Assembly (NCBI RefSeq): GCF_000003815.2
Contig: NC_049983.1
Location: 15,748,246-15,812,245, forward strand
Direction: 5' to 3'
Length of the DNA stretch: 64,000 nucleotides
Source of the DNA: Branchiostoma floridae
Taxonomy: Eukaryota > Chordata > Leptocardii > Amphioxiformes > Branchiostomatidae
This document shows, in pieces, positions 5,318 to 61,100 of this stretch; position 1 is the first letter of the stretch, and each line of letters begins with the position of its first letter. The notes under the pieces were generated by a model. The model worked only from the letters and a program-made list of their open reading frames with translations. It did not search any database and was not told where the DNA came from. The position numbers and the translations under genes were made by a program.

Positions 5318-8300
5318 GTAGGCTTATATCCTTAATCGCTTTATTTTTAAACTTGAAAAAAACGTTCCAGTACCAATATATAATGAATGATAACTATGAT
5401 AAACCAATCGTGTTATGTTTTAAGGTGAACAGGTAATATATAAAAGAAGGGAAAATCCACAATGTCCATATCAAGTTCCATCCTAAAATTCAATATGCTG
5501 GGCAAATCCGCGAAGAATGAAGAACACAATAATGATTGTTTAAGTCTGTAAATGATTTTCTTCTCACTCACTTTCAAGATAGTTTTATAAAGTATATGAG
5601 ATAAGTAATGTGCACTGCAGTATTCAGCTTTTAGTCTATCTCGACATTTGTATATCACTCATGCTGAAAAAGATACATGTTTCTTCGCCAATTATGTTTC
5701 GACGTTCTTCTTATCAGGAAACCGAGGACTTCTCTACGAGATCTGGACAAAAACTTTCACTTCTGACGTTCGTGACGTCACCAAGCTTCCATCAACATCC
5801 GGGGACTACAAATCCTTCTTCGCCCCAGAAGCCGCAAACCCACCGAAGGTTATTTCTATCATAATCTACTAGTAGTTTGATGTTTAACAAATTAAATATC
5901 ATTTAGTAATGAGGTGACAGTTTGAAAACAAGAACACTCAAAAACCCCTCTAAAGTATGATACAATACACAAATTTCATAGATTGCACCAGTTTTTGTCA
6001 CGCGTACGGTAAAATTTACTGTAAAAGGACAAGAATTATCACTTTCTGTGTATATAATGATACCTTAGTCTTGAACGAAACGTAGCTATTTAATACACAG
6101 GCTGTACATATTGTTTTAAAACATGCCGCCTTATGTAACGAATGTAGTCAATCTTAATAGCATCAGGATGGCATTTGATGCAAGAGAACAAACAGAAAAT
6201 AGTAAATAACAACAACAATGAAAATTATTTTCCATCCAGGCCGTGACTGGAGAGTGGAACCGATACAGCTTTAGACTCAGTGGGTTTTTCGTGCCACCGG
6301 TTACAGCCGAATATACCTTCTGGATCTACTCAGACGATCAGAGCGTTCTCTCCCTGAGCGACTCGGACAGGAAGGAAAATAAGGTTAGAGACTAATGTTT
6401 TAATTGTAGGTTATCATTTGCTTGTATACCAACACAATACGTGATAAGGAGCTTACTAACAGTGGTTAATCTGTTTTATTTACAAGGATATCGCATTATA
6501 AACTCTGACCTCCGAATACACTCACTTATTTGTATATACATAACTGTCACTGATGTGTAATATTCCCGCTATCTATGTATGTTTTCCGCGTCTATATGTT
6601 TTATCTCAAAACATCAAAGATTGCTGTCTTGAGAGTAAGTGTAATGTCCTTCTCAAATAAATACTAACAGCGATGCGAATGCAGAGTAGTTACAATATAT
6701 TAATCAAATCAGACATTCTATTTCGTAGCTAAAATTATACATCAGTTTAAAGAAACATCACCCATGTAACCATTGTATCGTATGTGATAAAAGAACACAT
6801 AAATGTCATAGCCCATTCATATTGCTCAGCTAGTAGGCAATGAAATGGATGGTGATGTCCAGGAGAGAGTGTGTTCAGCACCAAGGGCAGGTCTCATTCC
6901 AATAATGAACAGACAGTTAACGTTTAAAAGTAACTGTGCTTTCTTTATTGCTTTGTCTCAAAACAGGTTGAAATTGCTGAATGCCCATCCTACACATCCA
7001 GCTACTTCACAAACCGGTCCCAAAAGTCAGTGAAGCTCCCTCTAGCGGCCGGCGAGCGGTACTACATGGTATCCGTGGCGCATGACTATGGTGGCCCAGA
7101 CTACGTCAGTGTCGGGGTGCAGATACACAGCTCCGCGTTCTGCACGGCAGATTCAACCANNNNNNNNNNNNNNNNNNNNNNNNNNNNNNNNNNNNNNNNN
7201 NNNNNNNNNNNNNNNNNNNNNNNNNNNNNNNNNNNNNNNNNNNNNNNNNNNNNNNNNNNNNNNNNNNNNNNNNNNNNNNNNNNNNNNNNNNNNNNNNNNN
7301 NNNNNNNNNNNNNNNNNNNNNNNNNNNNNNNNNNNNNNNNNNNNNNNNNNNNNNNNNNNNNNNNNNNNNNNNNNNNNNNNNNNNNNNNNNNNNNNNNNNN
7401 NNNNNNNNNNNNNNNNNNNNNNNNNNNNNNNNNNNNNNNNNNNNNNNNNNNNNNNNNNNNNNNNNNNNNNNNNNNNNNNNNNNNNNNNNNNNNNNNNNNN
7501 NNNNNNNNNNNNNNNNNNNNNNNNNNNNNNNNNNNNNNNNNNNNNNNNNNNNNNNNNNNNNNNNNNNNNNNNNNNNNNNNNNNNNNNNNNNNNNNNNNNN
7601 NNNNNNNNNNNNNNNNNNNNNNNNNNNNNNNNNNNNNNNNNNNNNNNNNNNNNNNNNNNNNNNNNNNNNNNNNNNNNNNNNNNNNNNNNNNNNNNNNNNN
7701 NNNNNNNNNNNNNNNNNNNNNNNNNNNNNNNNNNNNNNNNNNNNNNNNNNNNNNNNNNNNNNNNNNNNNNNNNNNNNNNNNNNNNNNNNNNNNNNNNNNN
7801 NNNNNNNNNNNNNNGCAAGTACGTACATCTACATTGTCTCGGCAAATGATAGCAATAAAGTAGGCAATACAAAGTAGAGAAAACTGTTTATAGTTAACTT
7901 AGCAAAAATTATCACATATTTAGCTTTGAAGCTGGTGGTATTGTTTTGATGTAGTAAATATTCATTATTATAATGCAAATTTAGTAATCATCAGATTTGC
8001 TGATGATTACGTACACAGATAGCACATAAGCTAAGCATACATATTGCAACATATAGAAATAAGTTGTGCCGTCATTTGCAAAACAGCTCCGCGCGGCGCG
8101 CGCGTGGTGTACTGCAGCGCACAATGGCAGACGAATCAGATCGGTTTGTCTGACTCTCTGTTTAGTAAAAAGTCTTCACATTTGAGCACTCGAGAATAAA
8201 GAGATAGTAGCGAAGGACTCGTGGAGGATAATACCTTACAGGTTTGTCAAACAACAGCATTCATACAGGGCCGTATCATATTGGTGCGCCAGTCTTTAGT

Positions 8301-32300: not shown

Positions 32301-35300
32301 CAACAGCGTCTGTATATCTGTATCTGTATCTGTATCTATATAGCCGGTATAACCGCCATTCGGCGTAACACACCAGCTTCGCAGGCACGCGGCGCGGCAG
32401 CAGCTGGTTATATTACACTGAACGATCCGTCACACCTAACTTAGTTGAACGTTACCATACATGGGCTTGCTGTGTATGTTGCATTCTTGTCACCTTAATA
32501 TACAGAGATGTGTTCAGCTATAAGGCACACAGAGGCATTCGTTTGGTACACACCTGTCTACCTGCTTATGCCAGAGACTGGCCTCTTGCTACTTTCCGTC
32601 AAGAATCTTCATGTCGCACGGTCCTGTGCTCTAGTTTCCGCAGTCTTAGGACTTAGTCCAGTGTCTTTTGTGATCTGGTCCTTCTAATGCTTAGGAGGTC
32701 TACCATGTGGTCTTGGGTTGTGGAAATCCTGGTTGAAGACTTTACAGACTAAATGTATTCGGCGATCTCCTCATTACATGTCCGAACCATAACCCTTCTT
32801 AAATATCTTTGGTAGATAACAATGTTTACAAAAATGTTACATAGAATCCCAGGCTGAAGAGGTGTCCGTTACCTGGGAAGAGCTCCAGGCAGCAGCAGCG
32901 AGAGTCGTCAACAGTTACCAGAAGGGAACGATATCTGACGAACTCGGTTTGGAGGTATTGTTGTATTTATATTGAAGTAGCATAACCTCTGCTGTTGAAA
33001 AGAAAACTCACTTAAATACATTTAACGATCCAGACCACCATGCAGATATAGACAGTGCTTTAACTGTAGATTGGTGATGATATGTTGATTTCAATTTCTG
33101 TCTTTGCGTCTAATTCTGTGTTCCTCATTATCAGGTGCTGACGCTTTCCATAGCAGATGTTATTCCGCCTCCAGAGAAGATTGTATGGAACGCGACTACC
33201 AACACTACAAGGTAAGTTAAACTTACAAAACATGAAGTCTACACTGTACAACTTGATACTGACATCTTTATGAATATCTACCTAACTTTTTTATGAATAT
33301 CTGCGAAAAAGACAACCATAAATTGGAATTCTTACAAATATCACACAGACATTAGATATACGTGTAAACAGATAAACCAAACGCGGTATTTTTTTTTACG
33401 AAAAGACACCTTTCCCATAAACTGTACGATTTACTTTTCAGTTCGTCCGAGAATTTGGGATCATCAATCATCGTAAAGTACCCTGTTCCCGTCTCCATGG
33501 AGATTTATCAAAGCCCACCGCATGATGTCACTGTTGGTAAACTTCTAGTTCAGCCGATACTAGTTCTTCTTGATATCAACGGATGGCAAGTCACATCTGT
33601 CGGCCACACCTCCGCTCCGTGGACTGTCACTGCAACCGCAGAGGGCTACACCTTACCTCAAAACTCTCCACTTCAAGGTACATATGAGCTGTTGTTTGAA
33701 TTCTACACCAAAACAGCGAACGTTTGCTGATGTATAGAAATTACACTTTGAGCTGACTCAAAAGGAATAAATCACCGTATGTTTAACTATATCCATCGGT
33801 CTCCGTTTGAAAGATAAAGAACGTTTCTCAATCACAATGGTTATTGGGATGTGTGACGTCGGCGGAGGGACAAAGGTGCTTAGAAGTCGACACCTACCGC
33901 CGGTTCAGTTCAAAGTACTCTGCGTATCTTTTGACCTAGTTGGGCTTTTGACCTAGAATATTTTTACTCAATCTAATGTTTGCTGATGTTGTAGTCTTGA
34001 ACGAACTTTAATTTTGTATTCTTGCAGGAGGAGTTACCATATCTTTCAGAGATGGTTGGGCAAACTATACTGATCTTCAGATCACGAAACCTTCGAACGG
34101 ATTCCGAATTGTTTTTGAGATAAGCTACCCTCCTGGAGCGAGCCTCAGTCAGAGGACGGACAGGATATCGGTCGCGGATGAGGAGGGAGAGACAGTTGAC
34201 TGGATGATGTGGATCATAGGAGGATCCTCGGGAGGAGGGTTTCTTCTCGTGGTCCTATTGGTTATAATAATCTGCGTGTGCAAGAAGAAATCAGGTGAGT
34301 ACAAATATATATATGTCCTGGTTACGTAGTTCTCGTAATTTACTTTTCAGCACATTTGAAAAACTGGAATTGCTGATAGGCACATAAGTGTGGTATATAG
34401 AGCTGGTGTATATATGCGTATGGTCTGTAACACATTCCTTCCTCAGAATCTTTCTACTTTTGTTGGTATAAAAACGTCTACTACAGAGGAAAGCAATTTT
34501 TTGATAAGTGTCAAAACTTGTTGCTTCTTCATTAGATCAGTGTCATGTTCAGGACAAATAAGGTGCTTCGTCAATAGAATAGTGTCATGTTCAGGAAAAA
34601 TAAGGTGCTTCGTCGAACTATCTCTGTAATGTTACCGACCTTGCCTCATCATGCCAATCATTTTGATATTGTAGAAACACTTGATAGATTCTTGATCTAA
34701 CGTAAGGATACATCTTCCTTCCTTTACCTTCACAGCTCGTCGTGTGGGCTCCGAAGTCGTCGTTGCCAACTGGAGGAAACGACCTCACGGCAAGGGCGTT
34801 AAGGGCAAGAAATTCATCGACGAGGATACTCCATCGTCTTCCATGGTCGGCATGACTAGAGACGACGGCAATGAGGACAACAGAGTCGGTACTCCTATCG
34901 CTAAGGTCCCGATCGTCTATGAATTTCTGCCGCCGAAACCAAGTAGTCCAACAAGGCAGAGTTCGACATCCCCAAATACAGACAAAGTGACGCAAAAGGA
35001 CAAACTGGCATCCAAAGATATTATCGACTATGACGAGCAGTATGAGTTCATAGAGTTACCTAGGAAAAGTAGCAAAGCAGAAATTCAACATATAAGTCCA
35101 CCGGCGAACAAAACATCACACAACCAGGCAGCAGAACAATTACAGAGTGACACAAATGATGCTTCAACGTCGACTGTAACCAGAGAACCATTTTCATTGT
35201 TCAAGTCCTTGAAAAGAACGCACAGTCTGAAGCCAAGGTTGGGCTTTAGAAGGAATACCAGGAGGTCCGCTAAAAAGGGAGGGCCATGTGTGAAGACTCC

Positions 35301-37136: not shown

Positions 37137-40100
37137 CAACGTATGGTATGAGTCATAGTAAGAGCTCAGATTCCTGCTTTGCATATTGCTCATCATTCCT
37201 ACGACGACCTAATTTTTGGCAATTTATCTAACGACGTGTCACATGGTTCCTGAATACAATTCATAAACTATGTGATATGATAGTATGTGGTGTTTGCGCT
37301 TATTTGGTAATATTATTCAAGCATACACTTTACCATGCCGCCTTTACCGTTATGTATTGAAGTAAGTGATGATACAAATATCACATCACAAACATGATGT
37401 ACAGGTTTTGATTTTGTTCGCGACACTTTTCCTGGATTTGGCGAAGTGTAAATACCATGTCTATGGTTCCTCTGTTACTTCTGAAGCCGCACTGGCTTTC
37501 TGACACCACGTCGTCCAGCAGGTGCTGTGTGATGCGATTGAGGACAATGCGGGCCATGACTTTTCCAGCAGCACTCAACAGCGAGATTCCCCTATGGTTA
37601 TCGCATGCTGCTCTGTCTCCCTTGTGCTTGTAGAGATGAATGATGTTGGCGTCCTTAAAGTCCTGCGGCACCGATCCCTCCTTCCAGAACATTTGCATAA
37701 GTTCTGTCAGTTTGGCTGTGACAGCATCTCCTCCCTCTTTGAGGACCTCAGGGGGTATGCCATCTGGCCCAGGTGCTTTTCCTCCTTGGAGTTGCTTAAT
37801 GGCCTTCTGGGTTTCTTCCAGGCTGGGAGGGTCATCCAGAAAGGCCAAGAGTGGTCGCTGCGGCATGTCCTGGATTGCCTGTTGGTCGATATTGGAAGGT
37901 CTGTTGAGCAGCTGGCTGAAGTGTTGTCTCCAGCGCTCGGTTATGTCGCTCTTCTCTGTGAAGAGAGTACCATCAGCTGAGCGAACGGGTGCCATGGCAT
38001 TGGACGAGGGACCATACACTGCTTTCAAACCTGAGAAGAACATTCTTGTGTTGTGTTCGTCTGCATACTGTTGCAGTTCTGCCGCCTTGGACTTCCACCA
38101 CTTGTCCTTCATTCTTCTGAGTTCTACTTGAACTTTACTCCTGAGGTGTCTCAAGTGATCAAGCTTTGCAGTGGAGTTTTTATCATTCAGCCACCGTGTG
38201 AACGATTCTTGCTTTTCCTTCAGAAGGCTGGTGATTTCTTCATTATTGTTATCAAACCAGTCCTGGTGTTTACGCTTTGTGTGACCTTATGTGCGTTCGG
38301 ATGTGTCAAACATTACTTTGCAAAAGTTGCCCCATGCTTTCTCTGGGTTACTTTCAGCTGGCAGTTTCTTGATCTGTTTCCTGAGGTTTCTCGCTAGCGC
38401 CTCTTTTGTTTCCACATGTGAAAGTTTTGAGACATCAAGCTTCTTCTTCGTGCTGTCTTTCCTCCTCATATGTTTACGGTCTGCCTTTGCAGTTGAGAAA
38501 GAGAGCTTTGATCGCAGCAGCGTGTGGTCAGTCCAGCAGTCTGCTCCTCTCATTGCCCTGGTGATGCGCACATCACGGATGTCTTGTCGTCTTGTTATTA
38601 TGAAGTCTATTTGATGCCATCGCTTTGAGCTGGGATGCATCCAAGTGGCCTTGTGAATGTCCGGTAGTTGGTACAGGGTGTTTGTGACTGTGAGGTCGTG
38701 CTCAGAGCAGAGTGTAAGGAGCATTTGGCCGTTTGAGTTCTCCCTCCCTATGCCATGGGGTCCGATGACACCTGGCCATGCTTCACAGTCGCTGCCCACG
38801 CGAGCATTAAAGTCCCCCATGAGCAGCATCTTGTCATGTTTGGGTACGGTATGCACTAAGTGTGCAAGCTTCTCATAGAATTGTTCTTTCTGTTCCTGGG
38901 CATAGCTCATGGTAGAGGCATATGCGCTGATGAGGGTCAACTGAGTATTCCCTTTCAGGGGTAGCCTCATCACCATAAGACGGTCATTGATTCCTTTGGG
39001 AAGGGTTTCTAGCTTTCTCACAAGTGAGGTCCGGATGGCAAAGCCAACCCCGGATTCTCTGGGTTCGTCCTGACGCTTTCCTGACCAGAAGAATGTGTAT
39101 CCGCCACCAGACTCGGTTACCTCCCCTGTGTCCGCCAAGCGTGTTTCGCTCAGCGCAGCAACGTCAATGTTGTATCGCTGTAGCTCACGTGCTACGAGAG
39201 CTGTACGTCGTTCTGGTCGGTCAGAGTCTTTTCTGTCCATCAGGGTTCTGACGTTCCAGGCTCCAACACAGAGCATTGTCTTCTTTTGTTTGTGCTTTGA
39301 TGCATATTGTCTCTGTTCTCGACCGCAGTATTAGATGTCCAGACAGCTACGGTGCGCTGACAGGATGAGCTGAGACAAGCTTTCTTTAGTCCACAAACAT
39401 CATGTTTGTGGACTTAACCAAGGCGTTCGACACAGTCAGCCGAGAGGGCCTGTGGTCAATCCTGTCCAAACTGGGCTGTCCCCCCAAAGTTTGTCAGCAT
39501 CATCAGGTCATTCCACGATGGGATGATGGCCCGTGTTGTGGGAAACGGCACAGTATCTGACTCATTCCCTATCACGAATGGAGTAAAACAGGGCTGTGTT
39601 ATGGCACCCACACTTTTCAGCCTCATGTTTGCCACCATGCTGTTCAAGGCACTCTCTGCGACAGATGCCGGGATAACCATCCGCTACAGATGCGACGGGC
39701 GGGTCTTTGATCTACGGCGTCTCAAAGCAAAAACCAAGGTGCTGGAGGCCCTGGTGAGAGACTTTCTCTTTGCAGATGACTGCGCCCTTGCTGCTCTCAG
39801 CGAACCGGACCTGCAAGAGCTCGCTAACTGCCTGTCAACAGCCAGTAAAGCCTTCGGGCTAACAATTAGCCTGAAGAAGACAGAAGTGATGCTTCAACCT
39901 GCGCCAGGAGTGTCACTAGCAGCTCCTCACATCATGATAGAAGGAACAGAGCTAAACAGTGTAGAGAGCTTTACCTACCTGGGAAGTACACTGACCTCAT
40001 CCTGCAGCACAGACAAGGAAGTGTCCAACAGGATTGCGAAAGCCGGCTCCTCCTTTGGTAGGCTCTGGAAGCGGCTGTGGGGTGAACGTGGCATCAAACT

Positions 40101-43100
40101 TCAAACAAAGCTGGCAGTTTACAAAGCAGTTGTTATCACAGCGCTACTCTACAGCTGTGAAACCTGGACACTGTACAAAAAGCAGCTGAAAGCTCTGGAC
40201 AGATTTCACCTCCGCTGCCTGCGCAGAATTATGGGTATCTCCTGGACAGACAAGGTTCCCAACACAGAAGTGCTCCGTCGAGCAAACATGATGGGCATTG
40301 AAGCGCTCATCATGAAAGCTCAGCTGAGATGGGCTGGCCATGTGGTGCGCATGGACGAAGCACGACTCCCGAAGACAGTGTTGTGTGACGGACGTCCTTA
40401 CAAGCGCCACAAGGACTCACTGAAGTCGTCCCTCTCCGCATGCAGCATTCCACACCGGGAATGGGAGACTACTGCAATGGACAGATGCGCATGGCGCCAT
40501 GCTGTCCATCAGGGAGTAAAAAACTTTGAAAACAACAGACTAAATGAAATAGAGAAGAAACGACAAGACAGGAAGGAGAAAGAGAAGGAGGGAAGACCCA
40601 TCCCCAGCACCGCTGTCGTGTGCCCGACATGCGGACGCATATGCGCCTCGGCCTTCGGCCTTCGGTCGCACCAGAGACGCCATTGAAGTCATCATCGAAG
40701 TGACGATGGACATCCAACAACAACATTGAAGTAAGTGATGATACAAATATCTAAAAAAATCCTCATAGCATTAAAAGCCTCTACTACTAATGAAAACATT
40801 TACAATTCAAAACAGTTTTACACTACGGGTATAGTGTACATATATGACTTATTGCTGACTAATAATCCGACGAAATTTGATAATTTAATTAGTCCCATTC
40901 AAAAGACAATGCCAGGATTGTCGAAAGGAAAATATATTTCCATGTCTTTACATATGGAAGGCATGATAAAGATAGCACGTTTGCCTGTCTGTCCTAATCT
41001 AGCAAATACAAATGGAACTCCCTACCCTATAAATGTTGGTCTCGAACGAGTCCACGGCGGGAGAGACGACTCTCCTCCGCGGCTTGACTGTCGGTGGCCT
41101 GTACGTCCCCTTCTTCTTCAGGCAGAACATGAGCAATGCCGCTAGTGCTGCTAGGGCTGCCAGAGCTACGGGGATGCCGACAGCCAGCCCGAGCTTGTCA
41201 GCAGTGGACAGCCCCGCACTGGCAACAGGGTCCTCATACTAAAGGGAGATACAAAACAAAATTCATTTATAAGTCATACAAAACATACGCCCTTTTACAG
41301 AGGTCCGAACGAATGTGCGGCGACAGGAATTCTAGGAATCCATTTAATTGCACTCCCCATTTGCCAGCTAATTCTTTGCAATTATCCGGATGGTGCAACA
41401 TAGCGAAGTTACTCAGCTGGACAACATCACGAGGCTTTGGGATTTCGTGCAATAAACAGAAGTGTGCAGTTATCCGTTGTGCAATTAACTGGCTTCCACT
41501 GTATGTCAAAGGGTAAGACCCTGAATTTGTCAGTCCTTGTCTCGACTATTGTTCGATTTGCATAACAAGGTCCAGATGGGTAATGTTTTCAATTTCGGCG
41601 CCTTTACCTTTGACATATTGCCTAGAATTACTGTCGCCGCACATGTGTTCTTACCTCTGTGAAAGGGCTTATTGATCCTTATTGTACCCGATACAAACGA
41701 TCGCTGTTTTTGTTTACATCCGGATATTCTACGACTGGTCGTTTACCTGGAATACCAGGACGTCGGCAGCTTAGGTTGCTAGTCGGTATTGAATCACCCT
41801 CACCTCACCTCACCTCACCTAGTCCCATCCTCATCAGGAGGGTCGGGGACTATGGTAGCCTCCAGCACAAGTCTTCGCCATTCCTCCCTGTTCTTGGCCG
41901 TCTGGGTGCATACCGCCAGGGAGCAGCCTGTCCAGTCCCTTACGTCATCACACCATCTCCTCCGTGGTCTCCCCCTGCTTCTGGTACCGTTGATCTTGCA
42001 GTATGTGGGTGGATATGTTCTGTGCCCTAGTGACGTGGCCAAAGTACTGTAACTTCCTCCTTTTCACCAGGTTTAGGAGTGTTCGTGTTATTCCCAGTTC
42101 TGCTAGCACTGAGTCGTTGTTGCGGTGTTCAGTCCAGCTGACCCTGAGCAGTTTCCTGTAGCACTTCATTTCAAAGGCTTGGATCTTCTGGGTGTCTTTG
42201 GCGTGGAGTGTCCAAGCTTCACAGCCATAGGTCACTACTGGCCAGACCAGTGCCTTCAGTACCCTCAGCTTGGTGGACTTCCTTAAGGCTCTGTCCTTCC
42301 AGATGGACTCCAGAGAACCAAGGGCTATCCGCGCTGCTCCCAAGCGTGCCTGGCTATCTCGGCTACTTCCTCCTGATCCATCAATAATGGCACCCAGGTA
42401 CTTGAAGGTTGGTACTTGCTCTAGCTGGACCCCCTGGCAGAAGATCTTCAGTTCTGTGGGCTGTTTGGTTGCTGCCATGACCTTGGTTTTCTTGGTGCTA
42501 ATCTCCAGGCTGTACTCCATGGACACTGTGTGTACTAGGTCCAACAGCTCCTGCAGACGCTCTGGTGATGTTGCTATCAGGCCAATGTCATCTGCGAACC
42601 TCAGGTTGTTAATGAGCCTTCCACTGATGTTGACCCCAATCCAGGAGAGTTCGTCGGCAGATTCTCTCATTACTGCTTCGGAGTAGAAATTGAAACAGGC
42701 CGGAGAGACCAGGCATCCCTGCCGCACGCCTTTGGTGACTTCAAACCAGTCGGACAGCTCCTCCTCTACTCTCACTGCAGCCTGCTGACGTCTGTACAGC
42801 TGTCGTAGTGAGTTGGTGATGTACTTGGGGACACCCATTCTTTCCATCACTCTCCATAGAATATTGTGTTTTACAGAGTCAAAGGCTTTTTTATAGTCAA
42901 TAAATGCCATATAAAGACTTACATTGAATCAGTAGATCAAATTACATTGAATCAGTAGATCAAATTACAAATTGGTATGGAATTTAGTCATCAGTCTTCC
43001 ACCTGCCTTCTATCTGGTAGTGCGTCATCGTGACGTCATCACGATCAATCGAGCTCATATTGCTCCAAGACTATGACTATTTTGCCTTTCTGTGTATAGG

Positions 43101-46100: not shown

Positions 46101-49100
46101 AGAAAGGCTCAAATACCCGTTAAGTGGGGCCATCAAATTGGGACATTGTAAACCTGAAAGCATTAAAGAATGTTTATAATGGTACCACATTGATTCAGAA
46201 AACATTTCAAATTGCAAATAAAGAATAGACATTGCCATGTAGACATTGCCATGGCGTTTATAGCGGAGCTATACAATACACCATACATCGGAGCTTAAAT
46301 GACAAAATGTTCTCTACTTTTACATGAAAATACTGTTTTATTCGTCTTCCAGGTGCAGATTCAAAGTTAAACCATTTTTTTCTGTATGGAAATGAAGGAT
46401 TAACGAATCTTTCCTACCAGCACAAGTGATGCTATTGCCGTTGTTGTTGCTGTTACAGGTACAGATAAAACTGCCGGGAATGTTGACACAGGTATTAGGG
46501 GCGCAGTTATGACTCCCATCTGTGCATTCATCGACATCTGCAACGATATAATGCCAGTTTACTATCTCATTATAAATGACGTTTAGAATGTGTATTCAAC
46601 AATCAAACAAGAAACATTATCAGTCACACGCATAGATAATTGTCGTTGTGTCTGCCTGTCTCTATCTCTCAAGGAAAATCGGAGATGTGTCCACACCTAT
46701 ATTTTTCTCTTGTGACTAGTTTTAAAACAAAGTGTTCATCATCATCATCTGTTTAAAACAAAGTGTCGGAAACAAAGGATACAAAAGGACATGATGACAG
46801 ATTGACGTATCAGCATTTTGTTCTATTTTGATGGAAAAGCCAGAGAAAACAAACATGGCGCCGATGTGACGTCAAAATTGAAAATGATGATGCTAAGCAT
46901 GGCCAAAACATACAAACTCCTTCTCGCATGTGTGACATTTAAGTACTCAATGTATGTTTAGTATTATCAACACTTGTACCTCTGCAGTTTGGAACCGCTG
47001 CAGTCCATGTTAGACCGTTGTTGTTAGCTTGACACGTCACACTGGAGGCCCCGTCTAGCTCGAACCCAGAGTTACAGATGAACGTCACATCGTCCTTGTC
47101 ATAGTGCGGTCTTACTGGACTGAGATATCCATTATCAGGGGCGGTCAGAGTCGGGCATTGTTGAGCTGGAATCATAAAAAAATGCCTGTGATGAATGAAG
47201 TCTGCGTATCTGGGGAAACATTGAAAACTTCGAACGTTGCGGTGATATCTATACTAGAGCTATATATCATGATGAAAGAGAGGAAATTTGCAGCAGTATC
47301 TCCTACCTGTACAGTAGATACCATCTCCACTGTATCCTGGGTAACAAGCACAGGTGAAACTGCCGGCTGTGTTGGTACAGGTGGCGTCGGGGCTGCAGTA
47401 GTGGCTCCCATCTGCACATTCGTCATCGTCTGCATGAACAAAATTTAACAAGGAAAATAATCATCCTTACAGTATCCGTGTATTCAATGCCCAGCGCCGC
47501 AATTCAAGGCTATGCAACCTATATGCTGATTTATTAGTCTTTAGACACCTGGTAATATACTGGTGTGTTACGCCGAACGGCGGTTATACCGACTATATAG
47601 ATACAGATACAGATATTATTCCCTTATGAAAACATAGTTACAGAATTCTTCCTCACCAGTACAGGTGAGACCGTCTCCGCTGTACCCTGGGTTACAGGCA
47701 CAGGTAAAACTGCCGGCTGTGTCGGTACAGGTGGCGTCGGGGCTGCAGTAATGGCTCCCATCTGCGCATTCGTCAATATCTGTAAGAACAAACCACAATT
47801 ATCTTTTCATATAGATGGCGTCGACATGACCAAATATATCATACTGGCACCCAAGTATCCAACAAATCTCAGATAAGCAAAGCATTGAATATATCAAATT
47901 TATATATGTATATATATTCATGATTTTTTACAGAAATGTTTCATGTAATTACTGCATTTAGCCAATATAGACAAGAACGTGCAAATAAATATCATTGTCA
48001 ATTTAAAAAAAAACTTAATACTCGTAGTTGTACCTCCGCATGTTGGAATTATATCACTCCAAATCAGACCGTTGTTGTTAGCTTGACACGTCACACTGGA
48101 GGCTCCGTCCAGCTCGTACCCCGGGTTACAGATAAACGTCACCACGTCCTGGACATGGTACGGTCCTGTCGGACTCAGAGCTCCGTGAGCAGGGGCGATC
48201 AGTGTCAAACATTGCTGAGCTGGAATCATGAACAAATGCCTGTAATGTATGACGTCATAGTATCTGATAAAACATTGAAAACTTCGAACTTTTCCTTGAC
48301 GTTGCGGTGAAATCGATACTGGAGCTGTATACCATGATAAAAAAGAAAAAAAAATTGAAGCAGTCTCTCCTACCTGTACAGATGACGCCGTCCCCGACGT
48401 AACATTGAAAACTACGAACTTTGCCTGACGTTGCGGCGACATCTACATTATATACTGGAGCTATCTTAAAGTTGATAGAAAGTACACTCTCCTACCTGTA
48501 CAGATGATGCCGTTTCCGCTGTATCCTGAGCTACAAGCACAGGTAAAACTGCCGGGAGTGTTGGTACAGGTGGCGTCGGGGCTGCAGTTATGGCTCCCAT
48601 CTGCACATTCGTCATCGTCTGCGTAAACAAAGTTTAGTAAAGAAAATAATATTTCTAGACAGAAACATGGTGATATACTGGTGTGTTGCGCCGAACGGCG
48701 GTTATACCGGCTATATAGATACAGATACATATATTATTCCCGTATTACAACAAATTAAAAGAATTCTTCTTCACCTGTACAGATGACACCGTTTCCGCTG
48801 TATCCTGGGTTACAAGCACATGTGAAACTGCCGACTGTGTTGGTACAGGTGGCGTCGTTTGCACAGTTGTGACTCCCATCCGCGCATTCGTCAATATCTG
48901 TGTGAAAAAAGTTTAACAAAGAAAATAAGTTTTCTTACAGTATCCATGTATTCAATGCACAGCGCAGCAATTCAAGGCTTTCCAAACTATGTGGTGATTT
49001 ATTAGTCTTTAGACAGATGGTAATATATCATTCCCCCATTAAAACAAAGTAACATAATTCTTCCTCACCTGTACAGGTGAGACCGTCTCCGCTGTATCCT

Positions 49101-52100
49101 GGGTTACAAGCACAGGTAAAACTACCGACTGTGTCGGTACAGGTGGCGTCGGGGCTGCAGTTGTGGCTCCCATATGCACATTCGTCAATATCTGTAAGAA
49201 CAGAATCTTTTCATACGGATGGGTCGACATGACCTAATGCATCATACTGGCACCCAAGTATTTTAAGTATCAAATTTTCTACGCATTAAATGAACAATAT
49301 ATTAAGTCACTGCATTAAATGAACCGCATTAAATGAACAATATATTAAGTCCACTGTCGATGAATTCATTAATGCTTTCGCTGACTCTGTTCAGATGGCA
49401 AGGGCGTCCCGCCCTGACGCGATTGTCATTCTGGGCGACTTCAATGCAAAGCATGCGCAGTGGTGGCACCGTGATTCTACCTCACCTGTCGGTGCCAAAT
49501 TGTACCAGACATCTCAATTTTTAAACCTCGGTCAAATTATTAATGAACCCACCTGTGATCTCTCCCAAAGCCCCTCCCTCCTTGACCTAATTTTTACTGA
49601 TGCCACCAATTATGTAGATTCCGTTTCTGTCCAAGCCCCGCTGTCAGGATGTCACCACTGTCCCACAATCTGCTCTATGACCCTGTCAGTACACATGCCC
49701 AAACCTTATCATCGTGTTTTATGGGACTATTCTAAAATGGACCTAGATAAACTCACGACATTCTGTTCTTTACCTGAATGGAACGATATATATCTTCTCC
49801 CATCAGTTGATGCATCTGCTCTCAAACTATCTGATCTTATTATAGAGGCCAAGCATCAGTGTGTCCCTAACAAAAAGGTTCTAATCAAACCTAAAAACAA
49901 ACCCTGGATCACTTTCAAAATTCGAAATCTTATGCGCTCTCGTGACAAATTACACCGCATAGCAAGGCTCTCAAATACAGATGCAAATTGGGCTGCATAC
50001 CGTAAGGTACGCAACAGGCTCTCTAACCTTATCTCCCATAGTAAATCCAATTATTACCAACATCTAACGAACTCTCTTAACGACCCATCTACTACCAGTA
50101 AAAAATGGTGGCACATCGTTAAATATTTTTATCGACCCAAAGTCACGTCTTCCATTCCCCCTCTCAAGGAGGGAAACTCTACTATTTTTGATGCGTTGGA
50201 GAAAGCAACAATTTTAAACCAATATTTTGTATCTCAGTCTACTATCAATGATTCTCATGCCTATCTCCCAAGCCATTGTTACCTCACATCCAGTCGGCTC
50301 TTTCACATCAGTACCTCTCCCGAAGAAGTTCTCCAGTTTGTCCTAAATCTCGACACTGGCAAGGCCCATGGTTACGACAATATCGACAACTATTTTCTGC
50401 AAATGATCACCCCATTGATAGCGGATAAGATTTCCTATGTATTTAATCTATCACTCACTCATGGCTCGTTTCCCCAAATATGGAAATTTGCCAATATCAT
50501 ACCAATCTACAAAAAGAACGATCCACAAGAAAAAAGTAACTACCGACCGATATCTCTTCTCCCCGCCCTGTCGAAGGTACTTGAAAAAATTGTTTACAAA
50601 CACTTATACAATCATCTCATAAGCAGTAATCTGCTGTATCGCTTCCAATCAGGATTTGTGAAGGGTGATTCCACAGTTTGCCAGCTGGCCCACTTTACAC
50701 AAACTATTTTAAACGCTTTAGAGTCTGGATACGATGTGCGAACAGTCTTTCTTGATTTTTCCCGTGCCTTCGACAGGGTGTGGCATTCTGGACTTATTTT
50801 TAAACTCCAATGTAATGGTGTCGAAGGGCCACTCATAAATTGGATATCGAGTTATCTTAGCAAAAGATCACAACGTGTTGTCATAGATGGTCAGTCTTCA
50901 TCCTGGCTCAATACCAATGCAGGCGTTCCACAGGGCTCTATATTAGGCCCACTGTTCTTTCTCATATACATCAATGATATTGTAAATGATCTCGTTTCGC
51001 AACCCTACCTTTTCGCCGACGACAGTTCTCTTCTCGAGATAGTTAAGAACCCTTTTGATTCTGCAGCGATCCTAAACTCTGACCTGTCCAAAATTCACTC
51101 ATGGGCCTGTCAATGGCTCATGGAGTTGAACCCACAGAAAACTGAAGAAATGTGTATTTCTGTCAAAAGACATCCCATTGTTCACCCACCCCTTTATCTT
51201 GACAATTGTCTGATCCAAACTGTTATCACCCATAAACACATCGGAGTGATTCTAAGTTCAAATATGTCTTGGGATGCACATGTCAATCATATTGTTTCCA
51301 AAGTTTCAAAAAGTGTTGATCTCTTCAGTGGTCTGAAATTTAGGCTCCCCCGCAATGTTCTGGAAACGCTATATAAGTCATACATTCGTCCATGTCTCGA
51401 ATACGCCGACGTCATTTGGCACGGCACTACAAGTGAGCAATCAAATCTCATTGAACGTATCCAATATCATTGCTCAATTGTCGTGACAGGTGCCATAAGG
51501 GGGTCGTCGTATTTGTCATGTCGTCAGGAGCTGGGTTGGGAAACGTTATCAGATAGAAGACATGTCCATCGTCTCTGCTTGTTCTTCAAGATTGTTAACG
51601 GTTTAACTCGTGATTATCTACTAGATTTTGTCCCCCCAGCTATTTCTTCCGAATGTACATATGATTTACGTAACAAGCTAAACCTAAGGTCTACCAATCT
51701 CTCGACAAACCGCTCTCTAAAGTCTTTCTATCCATACTGTATTTCACACTGGAACAACCTCGACCCCTCAACCCGCTCCTTAAACTTTAGTCAGTTTAAA
51801 ACCTTTATTTTCAAACAATTCCGCCCGGCTAAATGTAAATACCTTAGTCATGGCCCCCGCTATCCCTGTCTTTTGCTGACTCGTCTTCGGATCGGCACCT
51901 GCAGCTTGAACTCCAGTCTCTTTTCCCGAGGGCTACGTAACAGCCCAGCATGTAGCTGCGGGTGCCGATCCGAAACAGTCGCCCATTACCTACTTCACTG
52001 CCCAAATTACACCAACCAAAGGTTACTTCTCCTCGGCAAACTTTCTCGGCTTTTAGGACAGTCATTTAACTTATTTACACATTCCGAAAATATGCATATT

Positions 52101-55100
52101 TCCTTATTACTTAATGGAAGTCCTTCTTTCTCATATTCCTTAAATTCCAAAATTCTTACTTTAACCCAAAACTTTATTACAATATCTAAACGTTTTATAT
52201 CCTGATTTATACTTTTTAGTTCTCTGCAAATCTGATCTTTTGTTACTGGGGTAGGGGAACCGGCATGCGCTCATACCAACTTTTGTTACACATCATTTAA
52301 TTTTTACTTGATGTTAGTATTATTTATATCTTTCTTAATTTTGTATTTCGCTTAGTTCAGTTATGTCTAAGTCTTTGTACACATGTATAGTGGTGGCGTG
52401 AATATAAGTTCCCAACTTGAGTGCGCCACCACTATGTCTGTCTTCTATGTCTTATTTGTCCGAATAAAAAAAAAAAAAAAACAACAATATATTATGTACA
52501 ATATTCAACAATAGTAATCACAGTTGTACCTCTGCAGGTTAAAACTGTATTACTCCAAGTTACTGCGACATGATTATGTATAAAAACTCTCTCTTAACTT
52601 ATAGCACCGATATGGTGTCAAAACCCAACATGCTGGTTCCACGGGTCACATGCAAAGTAACAACGTCTTGGTCCAAGTGTCGGCCGGGTTACAGCGGAAA
52701 GTCAAATCACAACGTCCTGGTTTAGTGCGATAACGCAGGACTTAAGTCTTCGTTAGCTAGGGCCATTAACTGTTAACATGGTATATCTGAAAACATGAAA
52801 GTAATAATGATGTCACGGTGTGGCGTAACTGGTAGAGTGTTCGGTTCGGAATCGAGAGGTCCTGAGTTAGATACCCGCCGTGACCCAGACATTGTGACCT
52901 TGGGAAAGGCACTTTACACGACCTGGGTACTTTACTTCGGTCGGGGAGGTAAAAGACAAATTACCTTCAGTCTGTACTGTGTATGTGACACTGTTAGTAA
53001 AAGCTACTAACTTGAGTGCCAGTGCCACATTGTCCTCGTCTGTCCAAAAGCAAATAGTAATAATGCCACAATGTCCTATGAAAAATTGTAAAAAACTTTG
53101 AATAACATGAATACTTACTGTTGAGCGCTGTGGGTACTACCGGCTGTAGACCTACCGGAGGGGAGGCCAGGGTAGTCAACGTGGAATTCTGCGAAGCTAA
53201 AACATAGGACATGAAAAGAAAGGATGGAAAGAAATGGTGGGATAGAGGGAGAAGTTAGAGTAAAGCCAATGGGGTTGGGCCAATGGTTGACTGTCAGAAA
53301 ACATGATGGCAGCAAAACCGAAGAAAATTTCAATTTTTTTTATCATTCACTGTTCACTTATGTAGTCGAAGCAAGCAGAAGATTCTGAACGTACCGAACA
53401 AAAGGGGGTCTGGAGTTGTTGCTCCATCAATCGTCGTTCTATCCTCTGTTGTTGTAGGCCATTCGGACGTCGTCGCGACGTCTGTAGTTTGCTGCAGCGT
53501 CGTTTCTGCCGTCGTCATTATCTCTGTCGTTGGTGCCAGCGTCGTTTCTGTCGTTGTCGTCATCTCTGTCGTTGGTTCAAGTGTCGTTTCTGTCGTTGTC
53601 GTTATCTCAGTCGTTGGTTCAAGTGTCGTTTCTGTCGTTGTTGTCATCTCAGTCGTTGGTTCAAGTGTCGTTTCTGTCGTTGTCGTTATCTTTGTCGTTG
53701 GTTCAAGTGTCGTTTCTGTCGTCGTCATCTTTGTCGTTGGTTCAAGTGTCGTTTCTGTCGTTGTCATCATCTCTGTCGTTGGTTCAAGTGTCGTTTCTGT
53801 CGTTGTCGTGACGATGTGAGCTGGAAGTGTGACGTATGTGTATTCAGACGTGAGCTTGAGCTGTGACGTATATGGATGCATTGCATTAGCTTGAAGTTGG
53901 ACAAATGTCAATGCAGACGTAAGCTTGGAGTGTTACGTAATACCATGTTGATGTACTACGTGAGCTTGAACTGTGACTTACATTGATGTATTATGTGAGC
54001 TTGACGTGTGACGTACGTGCATCCATGACATGAACTTAAAGTGTGATGTATATTGTTTTTTATGTGTGACGTATGTGCATCCATATGGTCAGCTTGAAGT
54101 GTGATGTATATAAATGCATTATGTGAGCTTAACTTTTATGTATGACGTGAGCTGTATAAGGTCAGCTCGAAGTGTGACGTATATAGATACACGACGTGAA
54201 CATGACAAATGTTAAAGCAGACGTGAGCTTGAAGTGTGACGTATGTTCATGTTTGACGTGTACTTGAAGTATGACGTACTCGCTGCATCACCTTGTGTTG
54301 TTGCAGGTTTCATGGTTGTGGTTTCCGGTTCAGGAGTGGGGAGCGGAGGTGGCGTTGGGGAAGTGGTCGGCATGGGTGTTTGAGTGGTTGTTGTTGTTGG
54401 TTTCGATGTCGTAGTCTTATCTGAAACAAGAATGTATGAGAAAAATAAGACTTAAGCACAAACTCAACTCAACTCAATATTTTAGCTAGACTTGAGTTCA
54501 AGCTTTAGCAATGGATAAATAAAGACATTGCTGATGAATATCGTGCTATTGGTTACCCATTGGTTAGAGTGTTCATATCTCTCCCAACTAGATACAGAAT
54601 AGAACCGACATGGTGTCATAATGCAACATGGTGGGGATGCCGCATTAAACATTGCAAACAACTAGTTATAGGATATTAATGCATATGAATGTGCTTACCG
54701 TTGAGCGTTGTGGTATCCGGTTCAGGAGTGGGGAGTAGAGGTGTCGTAGTGGTCGGCATAGATGTTGGGGTGGTTGTCGTTGTAGGTTCCGATGTCGCAG
54801 TCTCATCTAAAACAAGAAATTATGAGAAGAAGAATACTTAAGCACAAACTGAATGTTTTGCTAGACTTTTGTTCAATCTTTGTCAATTGATTGATAAAAC
54901 ATTCCTGATGCATAACGTGCTTATGGTTAACAGTCAATGAAACAATTTATCTCAGATATATCACACAAGCTGGATTGTGGCAACTTGTCACATGACAGGT
55001 AATGTGCGTTATATTTAGAACTACATTTAAACAAACAATTTTACGATGGTGGCGTATTTTTCCATCGCGTGCTCGTAGCCTCCACAGTTGATTATAGCCC

Positions 55101-58100: not shown

Positions 58101-61100
58101 TTCCTCACCTGTGCATGTCAGACCGTCTCCGCTGTACCCTGGATTACAAGCGCAGGTGAAACTGCCGGGTGTGTTGGTACAGGTGGCGTCCGTGCCGCAG
58201 TTATGGCTTCCATCTGCGCATTCATTGTCATCTGCATGAAGAAAAATTAACAAAGAAATAAGCTTTCTCACAGTATTCGTGTATTCAAAATTTGATTAAA
58301 ACGAGGACTCCAGTGCAGTAATTCCAGACTTTAAAACCTGCATGATGAGTTATTAGTCTTTAAAGTGTATAAGACAGCCCAATGCAACATTTTCGGATTA
58401 AATGGCAACACACGTCACGATATCACTTTGACATTAAAACAAAGTTACAGAATTCTTCCTTAAGGCCCCCTCTCACTTGACGTGCGGCACGCTTGCGGCA
58501 TTGCTGCGTTCTTTCACTGCGGTACTGTTTTGTTATTTTCTCCGATTTGTTATAATTCAGATATTGCGCAATACGTGAAAGTGTGACATAGAAGACCACA
58601 AAATACACAACAAGTAAGAAAATTCGTTCTTTATCTCTGAAATTCGTTGAGCATCTTCCGAACGCAGCAATGCCGCAAGCGTGCCGCACGTCAAGTGAGA
58701 GGGGGCCTTTACCAGTACATGTAGTGCCGTCGCCGCTGTAGCCCAAGTTACAAGCACAGGTAAAACTACCGGGTGTGTTGGCACAGGAGGCAAGGGGGCT
58801 GCAGGAATTACTCCCAACTGTACATTCATCGATATCTGCATAAATACGTAAATTATATCATGAAACGTAAGCTTGTAAACTTCCATTTATCAGACATTGC
58901 TTGTCGAAGCAAAGAAAGATGAATTATGCTTACTTAAACAAACTTCGCGCACTACACAGTTCATTAAATGTTGCAAGATTCCTCACCGGAACAGCTCACA
59001 CCATCGCCGCTGTAGCCCGACATACAACTGCAGGAATAACTGCCTGCTGTGTTGGTACAGTCGGCGTTTTGATTGCAGTTGTGGGTACCGTCTGTGCATT
59101 CGTTGTTATCTGCACCGAAGGAATATGAATAATTTTTATGGAAACTTATATGTTTTCTTAAAATATTTCGGCACAAATATGGTTACCCATGATTACGGGC
59201 TTTTTTGATGGGATATCAATCTTATAGAAATGTAAGAAATTATTTATGCATCAAGAAGAACTCCGAGAATTGGTTTCTTACCCGTACAGACAAAGCCGTC
59301 GCCGCTGTAGCCGGGTACGTTACAATCACAGACGTAACTACCAATCGTGTTGGTACAGGAGGCTTTGGGGTCACAGGTGTGGGTCGCATCCGCACATTCA
59401 TCTCTATCTGCATGAACAAATTACAAATTAGGGGCGAAATAGCATAGTGAGATAGTAAAAATGTCCACATTTCATTAGAAAATATAATCCTTGTCGTGAA
59501 TAATCTTTAAACAGTATCAAAGGGTCCAAGTAGCCACTGTGGCAACTAAGGTGGAGTTTTGGCCCCGTGTCTTTCGCAGGAAGATCTGATTGAATATTAG
59601 CCCTAGATGTTAAAGTCAAGGAAAAAATATTGGCTACACAAATACATCCACATCTAGAAAATATACGTGAAAGGTTAGAAAGAGCAGAATGAAGGTGACC
59701 ATGTTTGGGTGGGGTGGGGGGTGGCTTAAATTGTTAGCCTTGAATTTATTTTGGTACCTCTGCATGTTGGGAAAGGCTCACTCCATGTTTGGTTATCTCG
59801 ACACGTCGCACTGGCGGCCCCGTCCGGCTCATATCCCTGGTCACAGGTGAACCGTACGGCGTCCTGGGGGTAGTACGGACCGGGAGGAACCATCGTTACA
59901 TTACCTGGGGCCGGCGGGCACTGTAGAACTGAAATCATGAGTGGAGATTAGTTGTTGGTAAAGAAAATATCTAGATTTTCTAATGAGCCGTCCATAAAGC
60001 ACCCTTATATGCAATTACGTCTAACTACATGTAGCTATTCCTCATGATATTAGGTTTGAAAATTGGATAGCATATTTTTTTACATTTCATTTGGTGTGAC
60101 GTAATGTAGAATTAAAATGATGATGGGTAGATATGATAAAGATAAAGACTAGGCTAGTAATAGGTGTGTTTGAACTGTGTTTGAAGAACTTACCAACACA
60201 TATTGGCGTTAGGTCCATGCACGTCAAAAGGTCCCAATCGAAGTACATTGATTCGGGGCACTGCTGAAGCCCGGGGCGTCCTCGTGTCGTGTCCGGGCAC
60301 TCGTAAAACCCGGAACAGTCAATCATGTCTGGATACTGGCCAGGTGGTACACTATTGCAGTCCACGTTGCCCCCTGATGGTGGTAGAAAGTGTAAGAAAA
60401 TCAAAGGAATAGAGAGTGGGTTTGACGTGCCCATATCCAAACCCCTGACTTCTTAATAACACATTTTTCTTGCAAACTACAGTATCAAAACCTCGTTACT
60501 ACATGCTGTCATTTATCATGTGCATCAATATCATGATCCATAGTTAAGTTGTGGAGTAAAACAAATTTATCAACCGTCATCTCTTGCCGAACGTTATCAT
60601 GGAACTGAAATTGTGGAACTCTTATTCATTAAATTGAACGTACCAGCACAGAGTGGGTCGCCTGTTGCACTACGCTCGCCCCTTATGTGAACTTCCGTTC
60701 CAGTCTCTTCTGCGCTTGCCACGGTGTGTGTTCTGTGATGAACAAAATAGGTACGTTACAATTTAAAAAATAAACAACATTTGCATGATTTTACATTTTA
60801 TGTTATGTTATGTTATGTTACGTTATGTTATGTTATGTTATGTTATGTTATGTTATGTTATGTTATGCTGAATGATTTCAATGTCTGAAAGTGTCATTTG
60901 TGGGAATCTATCAAAATAGCATACTTAAAACAAGTCTCTTTACAGATGGGAAAGTCCAAGTCTTCACACCAGTTGCAATGCTTGAGAGCCTCGCATGAGG
61001 CGCCGTTAGACCTGTAATGAAAATGGAGTAAGGATGCTCATGGAAATAGACTGTATGATGATTCTTCAATTTGACACTTGGAGTTTTTACTCCGTTATAG

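Follow-up and report, generated by a model that had tools for sequence, protein, structure and literature searches.

The EGF-Repeat Gene and the Inserted Element

The window (the whole stretch of Branchiostoma floridae DNA analyzed, 64 kb) carries a minus-strand gene with tandem EGF exons. These exons were searched for by phase (1-1), length (105–147 nt), and the EGF cysteine pattern, so that exons of other lengths or patterns escape the search. It returned 16 rows, six of which were dropped because they differed from other rows only in where the same exon starts or ends, leaving ten distinct donors on the minus strand (59282, 58987, 58713, 58109, 49069, 48775, 48496, 47657, 47307, and 46418). 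The exon that concerns us here retains all six cysteines in an open frame and ends in ACTG, with the G of its donor at position 58712. Pfam matches to EGF_3 (2.9e-12) and EGF_CA (1.3e-10) cover its positions 58714–58833, and both domains were also found in the two neighboring exons. Matches to VWA, CBM_14, and Sushi lie near the EGF exons on the same strand. The features of the locus are collected in Table 1.

Table 1. Features at and around the altered splice donor, with positions counted from the first base of the window.
Feature	Position	Strand	Remarks
Previous EGF exon, phase 1-1	58987..59109	-	In frame with 58231-58109 if the hit exon is skipped
Hit EGF exon, 123 nt, phase 1-1	58713..58835	-	Six-Cys pattern in an open frame bounded by AG...GT
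Present donor GTAAAG (+1 to +6)	58707..58712	-	+1 to +4 from host/target site duplication; +5 A and +6 G from element
Target site duplication, copy 1, TAA	58709..58711	-	Donor +2 to +4
MITE-like element, 246 bp, AGGCCCCC...GGGGGCCT	58463..58708	-	Terminal inverted repeats and target duplication
Terminal inverted repeat, donor-side arm, 49 bp	58660..58708	-	GC 0.65
Terminal inverted repeat, far arm, 49 bp	58463..58511	-	Exact complement
Donor-like CAA|GTGAGA within the far arm	58471..58476	-	PWM 7.47 vs 5.81 at 58712
Target site duplication, copy 2, TAA	58460..58462	-	
Read-through frame, 96 codons	58426..58713	-	Exon, whole element, and a bit of host intron to the first stop
Remaining host intron, start GGAAGAATTCTGT	58232..58459	-	Homologous to paralogous introns (intron-head comparison)
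Next EGF exon, phase 1-1, donor CAG|GTGAGG	58109..58231	-	Exon search and Pfam

An earlier note on this DNA had described a MITE inserted at a TAA inside this minus-strand donor, and this was confirmed with exact coordinates, a duplicated TAA, and perfect terminal inverted repeats (TIRs) of 49 bp, which extend to 50 bp when the flanking A/T pair is counted. The interior of the element has a GC content of 0.345 vs 0.653 in the arms. The window was scanned for perfect inverted repeats of at least 18 bp within 1.5 kb, excluding 18-mers with N or with fewer than three kinds of base. The scan gave two results, namely this element (58708–58463) and a pair with 20-bp arms. No second copy of the 246-bp element was found in the 64-kb window, and the TIR had no match among viral contigs and none among prokaryote contigs, as expected for an animal element. 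Pfam gave no match in the exon's read-through frame, the one frame of the element that was scanned, and the other frames contain two to four stops each. The element thus has the makeup of a MITE: it is short, bounded by TIRs, and free of a transposase (as judged by Pfam in one frame and by stops in the others), and its target duplication is accompanied by a matching paralogous empty site.

Several other features of the window were recorded. A 56-bp segment (with ATAGCCGGTATAACCGCC) occurs with 95–96% identity at 32321–32376 (plus strand) and at 47560–47615 and 48678–48733 (minus strand). The latter two copies lie within EGF introns, and the segment is probably a dispersed repeat. A 42-bp tandem repeat in 7.5 copies occupies 53499–53809, where an open frame on the minus strand encodes Thr-rich units that appear mucin-like by eye. 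A LINE coding piece at 49323–52205 is open over 960 codons with Pfam matches to RVT_1 and an endonuclease, open frames at 37381–42928 look by eye like further LINE pieces, and a run of 655 N at 7160–7814 marks a gap in the assembly where GC content is low.

The Empty Site in Paralogous Introns

When the element and one TAA are removed, the intron head reads GTAAGGAAGAATTCTGT, the joined flanks read G|GTAAGGAAGAATTCTGT, and the longer intron read is GTAAGGAAGAATTCTGTAACTTTGTTTTAA. The empty site obtained by joining the flanks without the element is GTAAGGAAG, and an element-free allele would read GTAAGGAAGAATTC. Over the first 30 intron bases, the element-free head matches four of the nine sibling introns at 24–27 positions (58109, 26; 49069, 27; 47657, 27; 48775, 24), which bears out the empty site proposed earlier, and the remaining five at 11–17 positions. 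With the element in place, all nine sibling introns match at 7–11 of 30 positions, the four best siblings at 8–11. The +3 A of the empty site was taken from the target site duplication, since the four best-matching paralogs have G at this position.

A degenerate pattern for the paralogous intron head was also used, with at most two mismatches allowed. It gave five matches vs 0.05 expected: the heads after 47657 (GTGAGGAAGAATTCTGT exactly), 58109, 49069, and 48775, and the far flank of the element. Judged by these sequence comparisons, the paralogous empty-site test is positive.

Class and Age of the Element

PIF/Harbinger elements are mobilized by a DDE transposase together with a second, SANT-domain protein. 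They are described as having a 3-bp TWA target duplication, TIRs that are mostly shorter than 60 bp, and a first base that is usually A or G (PMC4482050). The element studied here has TAA as a TWA target (read from one copy) and a 49-bp TIR with A as its first base (AGGCCCCC). In target, TIR length, and first TIR base, it fits the description of PIF/Harbinger. The insertion is probably recent, the one indication of its age being the identity of the two arms.

An origin from another TIR group, such as NuwaII of the PHIS superfamily, appears improbable. The NuwaII target is given as C|TNA|G, which is a preference (PMC4482050). At the present site, G|TAA|G, the TAA fits TNA and a G follows it, but the 5' C is absent, which is no strict exclusion. 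The G in front of TAA makes NuwaII the less likely class, and both the length of the TIR and its first base (A or G) agree with the description of PIF/Harbinger. A TTAA target, as used by piggyBac-like elements, was rejected: TTAA stands at the far border of the element and GTAA at the near one, so that the direct repeat amounts to TAA only.

Effect of the Insertion on the Splice Donor

The donor 9-mer has changed from CTG|GTAAGG to CTG|GTAAAG, and the sole difference is the replacement of G by A at +5. Duplication of the three target bases has left G|GTAA in place on the exon side; this retention of GTAA, with the first copy of TAA forming +2 to +4, agrees with the earlier description. Since the element begins with AG, +5 changes from G to A while +6 is still G. 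The claim that the element supplies +5 and +6 holds in so far as A and G now come from the element end, but +6 was G already and the change at +5 amounts to a loss. The idea of a new donor kept by target-site choice was not upheld, as only +5 is altered, TAA lies inside any GTAAG, and the window contains 2439 TWA sites. The TAA survives because every GTAAG donor contains the target, and nothing shows or requires that the target was selected to preserve the donor.

To describe donor strength, U1 pairing energies were taken as the best single run of pairs. A previous register-locked score, by which donor 58712 was eighth of 40 GTs, was abandoned, since it added up isolated pairs on either side of mismatches. 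The predicted U1 pairing falls from 6 bp (–8.5 kcal/mol) at the empty site to 5 bp (–5.3 kcal/mol) at the present donor, whereas the nine sibling donors range from –7.7 to –11.6, so that the present donor is the weakest of ten. With pairing predicted below that of all nine siblings, the statement that the donor is "still usable" could not be retained as worded. On a donor frequency table (PWM), the score drops from 9.34 to 5.81, the lowest of the ten. By this table, 181 of the 4103 minus-strand GTs in the window score at least as high as the present donor and 22 at least as high as the old one. Both models suggest that the donor was probably weakened by the element. In LHCGR, a polymorphism at +5 of a donor shifts transcript levels (PMC5377329).

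Among the 40 GTs in 58835–58232, position 58712 is surpassed in U1 pairing only by CAG|GTTTTA at 58337 and on the PWM only by 58476. Because it is second on both scores, it is still a serious donor candidate. One sibling EGF donor, 48775 (minus strand, CAG|GTGAAG), naturally carries A at +5 and G at +6, as does the donor at the insertion, although the exon end at 48775 is the better one.

Predicted RNA Structure at the Donor

According to predicted folding, the two arms would pair in the pre-mRNA as a 50-bp stem that starts at +4 or +5. The predicted unpaired values of +4, +5, and +6 are 0.17, 0.02, and 0.00 with the element and 0.45, 0.18, and 0.18 without it. Several of the eight sibling donors folded (46418 was left out) are predicted to be equally closed, and openness varies widely among them. 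Since several siblings are equally inaccessible, structure alone fails to single out 58712, and the stem is a plausible handicap to the donor in these models. A hairpin at the donor of MAPT exon 10 has been implicated in setting exon inclusion (PMC9236610).

In co-folds with U1, one-sided pairing at –1 to +3 or +4 beside the stem gave –142.3 and –142.0, and two-sided pairing across the stem base gave –138.0 and –139.6. The optimum of the unconstrained co-fold was found at AGGAAG in the far flank (–142.5 vs –142.3 at the donor), where no GT stands in register. Within the model, this far-flank optimum shows the weakness of the donor's own pairing.

Predicted Transcripts and Alternative Outcomes

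Normal joining is predicted to keep all four EGF units tested, while skipping of the hit exon keeps the frame and removes one 41-residue EGF unit. We consider it fairly probable that the TAA of a GTAAGG donor was the target of a probably recent insertion by a PIF/Harbinger-type MITE, which left a weakened, partly working donor and some in-frame skipping. In this course of events, a short non-autonomous DNA transposon entered the donor of an EGF-repeat gene; the TAA duplication kept G|GTAA at the exon, and the AG of the element turned +5 to A and left +6 as G. The sequence itself shows the insertion, the duplicated target, the change at +5, and the frame of the skip product, while the class of the element, its recency, the partial use of the donor, and some skipping are inferred. 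The weakened donor most likely still works in part, and the 123-nt phase 1-1 EGF exon is probably skipped in-frame in a share of the transcripts. Against this explanation it can be held that five of the nine sibling introns resemble the empty site poorly, that the dropped pairing score placed the donor eighth of 40, and that the unconstrained U1 co-fold favors the far flank slightly over the donor.

It is possible, if doubtful, that the donor has practically ceased to work and that most transcripts skip the exon, the in-frame loss of one EGF unit masking the damage. The phase 1-1 exon would permit this, and a weak donor that adjoins a 50-bp stem, with the hairpin of MAPT exon 10 as a precedent (PMC9236610), and the placement of U1 on the far flank in the unconstrained co-fold point in the same direction. 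However, 58712 ranks second of the 40 local GTs on two scores, and the equal inaccessibility of several of the eight folded siblings speaks against such a complete loss.

Rather unlikely is the view taken in the earlier note, namely that GTAAAG is a fully usable donor and splicing is unchanged. Although GT, +3 A, +4 A, and –1 G are intact, and the sibling donor 48775 (GTGAAG) shares +5 and +6, with CAG instead of CTG in front, the +5 G has been lost, –2 is T, the U1 pairing is the weakest of ten, and the stem spans the positions from +4 or +5 onward.

We regard it as quite unlikely that the element itself provides a working donor (CAA|GTGAGA, 58476), or that the intron is retained, so that element-coded residues are added. 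This site exceeds 58712 on the PWM, and both outcomes find some encouragement in the exon frame, which is open across the whole element, and in the exonization and alternative 5' sites linked to MITEs in mulberry (PMC6593561). Its predicted U1 pairing is nevertheless weaker (–4.6 vs –5.3), it is part of the stem as well, and both products are cut short by a frameshift or a stop. Splicing from 58476 is predicted to add element-coded residues and then to shift the frame of the next exon until a stop is reached. The open frame is weak evidence for retention: noticed post hoc, it also arose in 3.0% of 5000 randomizations that shuffled the inner part and kept the TIRs, and it was therefore treated as chance and rejected as a signal. 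A rebuilding of the old donor in RNA, with the element looped out by the stem and U1 bridging the stem base via GGTA and AG, is very improbable and was rejected as the main mechanism, since two-sided pairing is less stable than one-sided pairing in the nearest-neighbor model even though the geometry would permit it, with the old donor's two halves directly on either side of the closed stem.

Relation to Known Systems and Significance

Insertions of maize Ds lend splice sites to host genes, and there, as here, a TIR end and host sequence together make donors. In contrast to the present element, Ds belongs to hAT, has an 8-bp duplication, and inserts mostly into exons. The PIF/Harbinger MITEs share the TWA duplication, a TIR shorter than 60 bp, and A or G as the first base (PMC4482050), the difference being that the copy in the window sits in a splice donor. 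Introners, many of which resemble DNA transposons, co-opt splice sites from the target duplication (PMC9860276), and the likeness consists of one splice signal formed jointly by target duplication and element end. Unlike in Introners, the intron existed before, only its donor was altered, no intron was created, and no acceptor was supplied; at the sibling exons the homologous intron is present and lacks the element.

In mulberry, MITEs are linked to alternative 5' splice sites and exonization (PMC6593561). They are likewise found at splice sites of host genes, but they belong to plant families and were studied with transcript data, whereas our case is read from DNA alone. In amphioxus, a gain of an intron in PRHOXNB involved the MITE LanceletTn-2 (PMC5802833). 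A MITE is tied to an intron of an animal gene in both cases, but an intron was gained there and a donor changed here. Among the matches listed, by title and opening of the abstract, in a literature search, which covered few subscription journals, there was no TWA element within an existing donor, and a case may exist in print. Taken together, the case is ordinary in kind, a known kind of insertion with a neat anatomy.

A more general idea, which we put forward as a long shot, is that GTAAG donors are self-patching landing sites for transposons with a TWA target, in that GTAA is always restored and the first base of the element sets +5. If this were true, families starting with G would leave the donor as good as before and families starting with A would weaken it, and more surviving donor insertions would be expected for the former than for the latter. 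Elements with a TWA target could then add length to introns at their 5' edge and hardly be noticed.

The locus offers a natural and clean +5 substitution made by a transposon, for which the paralogous introns serve as built-in empty-site controls. In this one case, known from its sequence, the rescue of part of a signal may explain how an insertion at a bad place can be tolerated. The rule that it suggests, that a signal for splicing can be saved in part when a target duplication overlaps it, is testable across genomes.
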